Origin: Bacteriovoracia bacterium
GTDB lineage: Bacteria; Bdellovibrionota; Bacteriovoracia; Bacteriovoracales; Bacteriovoracaceae
Direction: 5' to 3'
DNA length: 64,000 bases
Assembly: GCA_030431635.1 (NCBI GenBank)
Contig: JAUIIL010000006.1
Coordinates: 1 to 64,000 of the forward strand
Shown: piece by piece, positions 1-1,894 of the stretch
How the letters are laid out: each line of letters starts with the position of its first letter
Position numbering within the stretch: position 1 is the stretch's first letter
Notes under the pieces: generated by a model
The model's database searches: none
Seen by the model: the letters and a program-made list of their open reading frames with translations, nothing else
What the model was told of the DNA's origin: nothing
Position numbers and translations under genes: made by a program

Positions 1-50
1 TGTAAGCGCTGTGAGGCGTTGAGCTGACCAATACTAAATACCCTTTTGCT
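1..50 (+). rRNA. 23S ribosomal RNA, 3' end (partial)
   Basis: The first ~50 bases contain the conserved 3'-terminal 23S block, with GGCGTTGAGCTGACC followed by ATACTAA, as in the last ~40 bases of most bacterial 23S genes. The rest of the gene lies left of the window. The mature 3' end is estimated; a T-run follows at about 50-58. Unusually, 5S does not follow at the usual ~100-base distance, because a protein gene intervenes. Confidence 0.85.
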
Positions 51-192
51 TTTTTTTATAAAATGTCTTGTAGATAGAACTTAGGATTCTTGATTTTGTT
101 TGGTCCTGTTTTTTGATTGTGTAAGATTTACCTCTTACTCCTTTCACTTAAAACTAAATTTAGAGAATAAAATACAGCTTTAGTATTTTGTT

Positions 193-221
193 TTGACTCG
201 TCGCACTCTCTTCTTTATGGT
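193..221 (+). promoter_or_regulatory. Candidate promoter for the gene at 228
   Basis: TTGACT (193-198), a 17-base spacer and TATGGT (216-221), 4 of 6 matches to the -10 consensus. The predicted start of transcription falls at about the ATG at 228, which has no Shine-Dalgarno sequence, so the mRNA may be leaderless. Confidence 0.45.
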
Positions 222-227
222 TTTTCC

Positions 228-1037
228 ATGAAGAAAAAAACTCTAGTTATTCTCTTTCTCTTATTTAGTTCAGTTAACTCATACTCTAAAGGAAGATCTC
301 TCTTCTACTACAGCATTGTTGCATCTATGAAGCCTGAATTTGTCTTGCACTTGACTCGTTCAGAGCTTGCAAAAGCGGCGGCCGAAGTAGCCGGAAGAAA
401 GTTGAGGTCCAATGAAGTTATTGAACTTAACCCAACTCTTTTTAGAAAAATTACTGAAATGTATATTGATAAAATTGAAAAGGGGCTAAAGGACGATATT
501 GAGGGTTATTTAAAAGTTAAGAGAGAAAAAGTTTTTGCGCAAATTGATAAAGATTATACTTTTATCGGAGAGGATAAAAGTTGGGAGTCAATTAAAAGCG
601 TTCTTGATTATAAGGTAGAGCCTAACAAAAATTATGATAGTTCATATGGCCTTTCTCTTTCTTACGAGACGTTAGAGACTCCAGAAATTACTATTGATGT
701 TCTTAGTTATTATAAGCCTAAGTTAGGAATAGAATTCTTTGAGATTGATAAAATCGAGTATCAGTTAAAGGCTCCAGGTGAAGGCTTGCAGGCCCTTGGG
801 GAGAGCATTAGTATAGATCCTTTAAAACTAGATATTTACCCTCAGAGCAGTGATTTTGGCGTACCCTTTAAAACACTAAGAGAAATAGATAAAGCGATGT
901 TTAAAAGCTCTCATGAACTAACAGAGGGAAGTCTTATTCTTTACCCTAAAGAGGGGCGTGGAAAACTTCCAAAGTCTATGGTTGTTTCAAGCCAGAGTTT
1001 AAAATATTGTCATTTTTTTAAGAAAAAAATGAAATAA
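228..1037 (+). CDS. Exported protein of unknown function encoded between 23S and 5S rRNA
   Basis: 269 residues. The first ~20 form a signal peptide (basic MKKK, hydrophobic core, cut near SYS/KG). The mature part is charged, with a Lys-rich helical stretch at about 80-110 and no domain I recognise; the C-terminus is very basic (KKKMK). No Shine-Dalgarno precedes the ATG; the bases before it are pyrimidine-rich, and a promoter-like element ends seven bases upstream. The gene lies on the same strand as the rRNA genes, between 23S and 5S. Codon use looks like that of neighbouring genes. The reading frame is clearly real by length and signal peptide; its function is unknown. Confidence 0.75.
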   Translation: MKKKTLVILFLLFSSVNSYSKGRSLFYYSIVASMKPEFVLHLTRSELAKAAAEVAGRKLRSNEVIELNPTLFRKITEMYIDKIEKGLKDDIEGYLKVKREKVFAQIDKDYTFIGEDKSWESIKSVLDYKVEPNKNYDSSYGLSLSYETLETPEITIDVLSYYKPKLGIEFFEIDKIEYQLKAPGEGLQALGESISIDPLKLDIYPQSSDFGVPFKTLREIDKAMFKSSHELTEGSLILYPKEGRGKLPKSMVVSSQSLKYCHFFKKKMK

Positions 1038-1051
1038 TTTTTAAAAAACTA

Positions 1052-1080
1052 TTGACTCAATAAATGAGTTATTCTATAAC
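1052..1080 (+). promoter_or_regulatory. Candidate dedicated 5S rRNA promoter
   Basis: TTGACT (1052-1057), a 17-base spacer and TATAAC (1075-1080). The predicted transcription start (about 1086-1087) is almost exactly the 5' end of mature 5S. A 5-5-5 inverted repeat, ACTCA/TGAGT (1055-1069), lies within it. Confidence 0.5.
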
Positions 1081-1083
1081 TTG

Positions 1084-1199
1084 GGTGTGTGTTGATAGCG
1101 GCAGTGAAACACCCGGTCCCATCCCGAACCCGGAAGTTAAGCCTGCTTGCGACGAAGGTAGTGCCAGGGTGACTTGGTGTGAGAATAGTTAAATGCACG
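1084..1199 (+). rRNA. rrf: 5S ribosomal RNA
   Basis: About 116 bases with the highly conserved core CCCATCCCGAACCCGGAAG near 1119-1137 and the GGTAGTGCCAGGGTGAC region near 1157-1173. The ends were set from the terminal helix: bases 1085-1090 pair with 1193-1198 with two G-U pairs. It lies ~1.03 kb after the 23S end, with a protein gene between them, a promoter directly upstream and a terminator directly downstream. Confidence 0.93.
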
Positions 1200-1207
1200 T
1201 CTTTTTT

Positions 1208-1238
1208 AAAGCTCTTCTTACGAAGAGCTTTTTTTTTG
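1208..1238 (+). terminator. Rho-independent terminator after 5S
   Basis: Perfect 10-bp stem (1208-1217 with 1222-1231, core GCTCTTC/GAAGAGC), 4-base loop TTAC, followed by a run of T. Confidence 0.9.
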
Positions 1239-1277
1239 CCTAAATATCAATCTTTAGAAAATTCCTGAACAATAAAA

Positions 1278-1805
1278 CTAGAATATGATCCCAAGACTCG
1301 CAATAAGTCCAAAACCATTTGAACTTCTTACTCTTAAAACCTCTGCTCCAGTTCCGATAACATAGGAAGCATTTTTACGGTGAAAAAGCCATTTGTGTTT
1401 GAGAATAAAACTAAGTCCTAAAGCAGAATCATCTTCTCTTAAATTAACACCATAAAGGTCGTGATAAGAATCATTAAAGCGTCTGTTTCTATCTATTCCA
1501 GTCTTAATGTAGACAATCGATGGATTAAGATAAATTCCATTGTGAGATGTCGACTCCTCAATTGTCCACTCTGCACCAGCAGAGAAAGAGCTAACAGCAG
1601 GATCTTGTCTTGTACCCATATTAACAACCACAGAAGCATAATCAAGATAGTTTCTTTGAAGGCTTACACCTGCCATTCCATGCTGGTAATTGATATTAAC
1701 AGCATTCTTTCTTACGACAGAACCCGATTCAACAGATCTTTTAGACTGAGAAATCTCGGCAATGGCCGCTAAGGCAAATAAAGAAAAAAGAATAAGAAAT
1801 TTCAT
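1278..1805 (-). CDS. Probable small outer-membrane beta-barrel protein
   Basis: 175 residues from the ATG at 1805, preceded by AAGGTGG; a longer frame opening 54 bases upstream is rejected because it buries the signal peptide. Residues 1-17 form the signal peptide (core LILFSLFALAAIA). The mature protein has alternating hydrophobic/polar strands, many Gly, Asn, Ser and aromatic residues, and ends in Ile-Ile-Phe. A C-terminal Phe is the usual BAM recognition feature of outer-membrane barrels. I do not recognise a family. It stands alone, convergent with the rRNA terminator. The barrel assignment is an inference from composition and C-terminus. Confidence 0.6.
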   Translation of the reverse strand: MKFLILFSLFALAAIAEISQSKRSVESGSVVRKNAVNINYQHGMAGVSLQRNYLDYASVVVNMGTRQDPAVSSFSAGAEWTIEESTSHNGIYLNPSIVYIKTGIDRNRRFNDSYHDLYGVNLREDDSALGLSFILKHKWLFHRKNASYVIGTGAEVLRVRSSNGFGLIASLGIIF

Positions 1806-1894
1806 AGAAACCACCTTTTGTCTTAAGGAGATTGTAGTATGTAGTATGACTACAAGCAACTTCTTATGAAAACATTATAGCCTGAAACACTTTT

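Follow-up and report, generated by a model that had tools for sequence, protein, structure and literature searches.

Bacteria are thought to keep their 16S, 23S and 5S ribosomal RNA (rRNA) genes in one transcript, an arrangement that would give equal amounts and shared processing. The 5S rRNA gene considered here departs from it in a way that is uncommon, and lies near the start of the window, by which we mean the whole 64-kb stretch that was analysed: positions 1 to 64,000 of contig C15 (JAUIIL010000006.1) in the 3.32-Mb, 19-contig assembly of a member of the Bacteriovoracaceae. That unlinked rRNA genes are known in some bacteria was already pointed out in an earlier note on this DNA, and four reports describe the closest systems. 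A serovar of Leptospira interrogans is reported to have a single 5S gene beside two genes each for 16S and 23S, all physically apart (PMC3037291), Mycoplasma flocculare has its 5S separate from a 16S-23S operon with one copy of each gene (PMC4357767), and Desulfallas gibsoniae has a stand-alone, oversized 5S gene outside an operon (PMC7812874); in the archaeal Crenarchaeota and Thermoplasma the 5S is physically separate and independently transcribed (PMC8339473). The present locus resembles that of L. interrogans in having one 5S gene for more than one 23S gene, but in Leptospira all three genes are apart, whereas here the 23S copies keep their flanks, leader-like contig ends fit 16S-23S operons, and the 5S lies about 1 kb behind one of the 23S copies. 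M. flocculare differs from this genome, in which two 23S copies go with one 5S and the old synteny is still readable; unlike the oversized gene of D. gibsoniae, the window 5S is the only one found and is of normal length. The archaeal cases differ in that the site in front of the present gene is of the bacterial sigma-70 type.

We favor, with a probability of roughly three in four, the reading that this 5S is an independent transcription unit made up of a sigma-70-type promoter, the gene and an intrinsic terminator, that it descends from an ancestral 23S-5S linkage, and that it is one 5S for two 23S genes. The window opens with the 3' end of a 23S gene (1-57, forward strand), which is truncated by the contig start; its tail motif begins at 20, and homology to the Rfam large-subunit (LSU) rRNA ends of relatives puts its end at about 57, close to the ~50 given in the earlier note. 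A protein gene of 269 amino acids (228-1037, forward strand), with a signal peptide read by eye, follows and does separate the two rRNA genes as the earlier note had claimed. Its codon use is of the coding type in its own frame only: the per-codon score is 0.199 there and less than 0.01 in each of the other five frames, while the 27 long open reading frames (ORFs) of the window that were scored have a median of 0.218. The ORF has no match in Pfam or NCBIfam, and none among the 128 other family genomes searched. The distance from 23S to 5S is about 1,030 nucleotides (nt), so that another gene stands between them and the normal short spacer is exceeded. The 5S gene itself, previously placed at 1084, matches the full Rfam model RF00001 at 1085-1201 on the forward strand (92.8 bits), and its helix I may reach 1083 and 1202. 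As expected of a stand-alone 5S, it has a strong terminator of its own directly behind it (1208-1231, forward strand; 10 pairs, then a T-run), and the surrounding region (1204-1240) has a fold of -13 kcal/mol, with a z of -4.6.

Directly before the 5S stands TTGACT-17-TATAAC (1052-1080, forward strand), which the earlier note had singled out and which we take as the putative 5S promoter, with a -35 element TTGACT at 1052-1057, a spacer of 17 and a -10 element TATAAC at 1075-1080. Scored with a sigma-70 matrix, the site reaches 9.3, and only seven sites of at least 9.2, itself included, occur at the 127,930 positions of both window strands. The expectation for such a site in the 30 positions before the 5S is 0.0016, and the comparison with 300 dinucleotide shuffles of the 75 upstream bases gives p 0.013. 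The -35 element also lies inside a short dyad seen by eye, TGACTCA-5-TGAGTTA (1053-1071), which could be an operator, a weak terminator of the ORF, or chance.

The rest of the genome points in the same direction. Only one 5S gene was found in the assembly (75 candidates, all 75 of them scored), as against two 23S 3' ends. The second of these opens contig C16. It matches the end on C15 base for base up to position 127, after which the two differ, and it is followed by a DUF72 gene, encoded on the opposite strand, and then by lspA and ftsK; no 5S was found within 12 kb behind it. With a 23S copy that no 5S follows over this distance, 5S supply is not coupled to every 23S transcript, and at neither 23S 3' end does a 5S follow directly as it would in an ordinary 16S-23S-5S operon. 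Shared stretches of exactly this length recur at several other contig ends, and we infer that they are the trace of an assembly with k=127 at a collapsed repeat, which C15 and C16 would leave by two genuine exits. A different 127-base end is common to contigs C6 and C17, where it stands behind motifs picked by pattern (TTGACC-17-TATATT and TTGACA-17-TATTTT), and C17 carries a transfer RNA (tRNA) gene, tRNA-Ala(TGC), near the shared end; the same tRNA precedes 16S in the complete operons of genomes G002 and G136. These ends can be read as two probable operon starts, and two leader-like ends together with two 23S ends are consistent with two 16S-23S operons.

The earlier note had suggested a comparison of all rrn loci of the genome and its relatives, and beyond the second 23S without a 5S this turned up further separated genes. 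A search of 129 genomes of the family gave a 5S match in 69 of them and 93 matches in total, 71 of which were examined; the other 22 are a linked, part-masked copy in G005 and 21 matches starting at a contig edge (10 of the contig-edge rows, on the reverse strand, were checked as beginning at the edge). Among the 71 loci, 44 (in 39 genomes) are linked, with the 5S 77-320 nt after a 23S tail motif that itself stops some 20 nt short of the Rfam 23S end, 6 are separated, and 21 were not classed, 19 of these having at most 119 bases upstream and the other two (G062 and G019 C48) looking linked by other evidence but left uncounted. The six separated genes are the one in the window, one on contig C3 of G034, a genome of the sister genus, and one in each of the four g32 genomes among those searched. 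At the start of the G034 contig is a 23S end, and behind it lie in turn a gene for an M1 peptidase, two more genes, the 5S, lspA and the beginning of ftsK; G034 also has a second 5S copy, on C63, that is linked to 23S. All four g32 genomes carry a single found 5S with ftsK directly downstream, and no 23S was found in the 3.3-7.0 kb upstream of it. Since ftsK follows the 5S in 23 of the 71 loci and in 13 genera, within the 1-2 kb of downstream sequence that was available for most of them, 5S-ftsK appears to be the old order. We take it that in g32 the 5S stayed at the ftsK locus while the 23S is no longer ahead of it, and that in the present genome the 5S was probably lost from that locus. The window 5S nevertheless seems to be at an old site of its own, with the ORF lying between it and the 23S, because the convergent gene downstream (1278-1859, reverse strand) has a homologue, at 41.7% identity, after the linked 5S on G034 C63.

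Some candidates were discarded during this survey: 23S-tail pattern matches in G098, G100 and G114 had no LSU match and were dropped as chance, and an apparent 23S gap of 2,147 nt in G107 was a loose motif match at which the covariance search found no 23S. The low score of the G005 copy is explained by its partly reading as N (L178:1049-1070) behind the 23S.

Promoter-like sites are a recurrent feature of the separated genes. When the -10 element must lie within 20 bp of the 5S, the scores are 11.4, 10.0, 9.3, 8.8, 8.8 and 5.9 for the six separated loci and no higher than 7.3 for the 39 linked genomes (one-sided p 0.00013; with one value per genus, 3 vs 24, p 0.0038), and over the whole 75 bp the difference gives p 0.0007 by genomes and 0.023 by genera. 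Five of the six thus outscore every linked genome near the 5S, the exception being G034 C3 at 5.9. Among the g32 genomes, the invariant sites number 10 of 12 in the hexamers, 2 of 17 in the spacer and 6 of 40 in the 40 bases upstream. These results, together with the unaccompanied second 23S, mean that the independence of the 5S proposed in the earlier note is well supported by comparison, although the exact start that it had assigned is not.

An alternative source of 5S would be read-through, in which the gene is expressed from the 23S transcript across a long, gene-bearing spacer and the putative promoter plays little part or is a chance match. Transcripts of rRNA operons are antiterminated, the ORF and the 5S share their strand with the 23S, and no consensus-type terminator was found between 23S and 5S, the one hairpin seen there, at about 164-194, being A+T-rich. 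We nevertheless consider read-through unlikely, as it does not sit well with the second 23S and its 5S-free 12 kb, with the g32 loci, where the 3.3-7.0 kb upstream of the 5S contain no 23S, with the recurrence of promoter-like sites before five of six separated genes, or with a strong terminator that belongs to the 5S alone.

A number of points weigh against an independent 5S unit. The window -10 hexamer is without the usual final T, and a standard consensus scan, which accepts only hexamers ending in T as a -10, misses the TATAAC site. The promoter scores depend on the particular sigma-70 matrix used, and the g32 hexamers were chosen for their likeness to the consensus, which biases that conservation test towards a promoter. 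The contrast within G034 failed, its separated and linked copies both scoring 5.9. Over the wider 75 bp, linked genes in G002 and G093 (g3) and in G021 (g22) reach 8.1-9.0 (9.0 in g3, 8.1 in G021), and the two unclassed copies of G010 (g11), whose 23S is off the contig, reach 8.9. The number of 5S copies in each relative was also taken from the family search, which had stricter filters and scored 25 candidates per genome. The same standard scan finds promoter-like sites in the region to be in no excess (4 found vs 5.6 expected), a result that bears as well on the idea that the 5S is the tail of a messenger RNA (mRNA) of the 269-amino-acid gene. That idea draws on a promoter-like TTGACT-17-TATGGT ahead of the ORF (193-221, forward strand) and on the fact that no terminator-like site is listed between ORF and 5S, but sites of this kind are not above chance here, and tying the 5S to an ORF without a counterpart in the 128 other family genomes would be a poor supply route; we regard it as highly improbable.

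Two further points on the other side concern the assembly itself: it lacks the bodies of 16S and 23S, and contig C7 (2,444 bases) reads as N, so that a second 5S could be hidden. Because the contig break falls exactly at the rRNA repeat, one might suppose that a further, linked 5S lies on a missing or masked contig. This seems very unlikely in light of the two repeat exits, neither of which has a 5S beside its 23S, the presence of a candidate 16S leader on exactly two contig ends, and the same kind of junction in the separate assembly of G034.

The 23S flanks of relatives form a long stem, at -79.8 kcal/mol in G136 and -71.0 kcal/mol in G002 compared with shuffled means of -35.5 and -33.6, respectively. 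By our reading, the 3' arm in G136 reaches about GATTGT, and the same GATTGT stands at 115-120 of the window. It falls within the stretch of 23S 3' flank that is exactly common to both rrn copies of this genome (58-127, forward strand) and that is homologous, by alignment, to the 3' arm of the pre-23S processing stem; this genome's own 23S may therefore be presumed to form such a stem. In the comparison of junctions, which covers this genome and G034, the copies of the 23S end diverge at 127 here and at 141 between the G034 contigs, just behind GATTGT in both cases. With the cut just behind the stem arm, the 23S would keep its processing arm and the 5S alone would be cut off.

The 5' end of the 5S transcript can be estimated from the usual distance between a -10 element and the start of transcription. 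With the -10 ending at 1080, the predicted start is about 1087 (1086-1088), and helix I and homology place the likely mature 5S 5' end at about 1083-1085, with the E. coli 5S numbering as reference. The predicted start would thus lie 1-5 nt inside the likely mature end. The earlier note had set it exactly on that end and had concluded that little or no 5' processing would be needed; the two positions agree to within a few bases, and the conclusion about processing goes further than the sequence shows. In G034 the predicted start would be at about the first base of 5S helix I, and in the four g32 genomes the predicted leader is about 8-10 nt. A more specific proposal appears possible but doubtful to us, namely that transcription starts within 2 nt of the mature end so that no 5' nuclease is needed, that one 5S for two 23S genes has freed the supply from the rRNA operon promoters, that a like separation took place on the g32 branch, and that the cut fell just behind the pre-23S stem in this genome and G034.

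In a tree of 30 FtsK rows, this genome stands beside G034 (100/100) and g32 beside G108 (98/94), a genome with a linked 5S at a gap of 227 nt. With G034 scored as separated by its C3 copy, the separated state requires two changes, each imposed by well-supported branches, either two gains or, less likely, a gain and a return. Our proposed explanation begins with an ancestor in which the 5S would have lain directly behind the 23S. At the window locus, DNA with a protein gene may then have come between the pre-23S processing stem and the 5S, and at the second locus, ahead of lspA-ftsK, the 5S was probably lost. The 23S would retain its 3' processing arm, and the 5S would be transcribed alone from its own predicted promoter, its 5' end falling at or a few nt from the mature end and its 3' end being trimmed back from the terminator. 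On the assumption that both 23S copies sit in an operon with a 16S, the single 5S would most likely supply ribosomes from both 23S copies.

In the open-access literature we found no report of a separated 5S for this group (searched under Bacteriovorax), nor of such a bacterial 5S with its own promoter. Stand-alone 5S genes are already known as a kind, and what appears to be new is this lineage with its readable intermediates. The 5S appears to have left the rRNA transcript on two branches, and loci that are linked, a genome with one of two copies separated and genomes with a separated copy only can be seen within one family. The family offers a way to study how the dosage of a 5S with a promoter of its own and half the gene copies is adjusted to that of 23S, and how much 5' processing remains.

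In the 23S-5S spacers of g3 and g11 (L015, L084, L077, L086 and L013), promoter-like sites whose hexamers are 17 bases apart stand 22-31 nt before the 5S. These sites overlap a hairpin whose arms co-vary by eye (GACTCT/AGAGTC, GATTC/GAATC and GACCGG/CCGGTT), and because of this overlap a promoter and an RNA stem are not distinguishable there; a 5S promoter may already have been present in linked spacers of this kind. Outside the family, locus L008 (G056, in another family of the phylum) has a 23S-5S gap of about 600 nt, as compared with 76-309 nt in nine other measured loci. As to the 269-amino-acid ORF, the site at 193-221 would start transcription at about its ATG, so that its mRNA could be leaderless, and the single match in the named-genome collection (a Chitinophagaceae metagenome-assembled genome, 30 residues at 58%) lies opposite a long ORF on the other strand and was taken as chance. 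Elsewhere in the assembly, repeats with G+C-rich palindromes stand at the starts of C2, C4, C6 and C17, and at the ends of C9, C14 and C16 and the start of C5. Each of these two shared end sequences thus occurs at four contig ends, which would fit a single element, present in at least four copies, with one of the sequences at either end.
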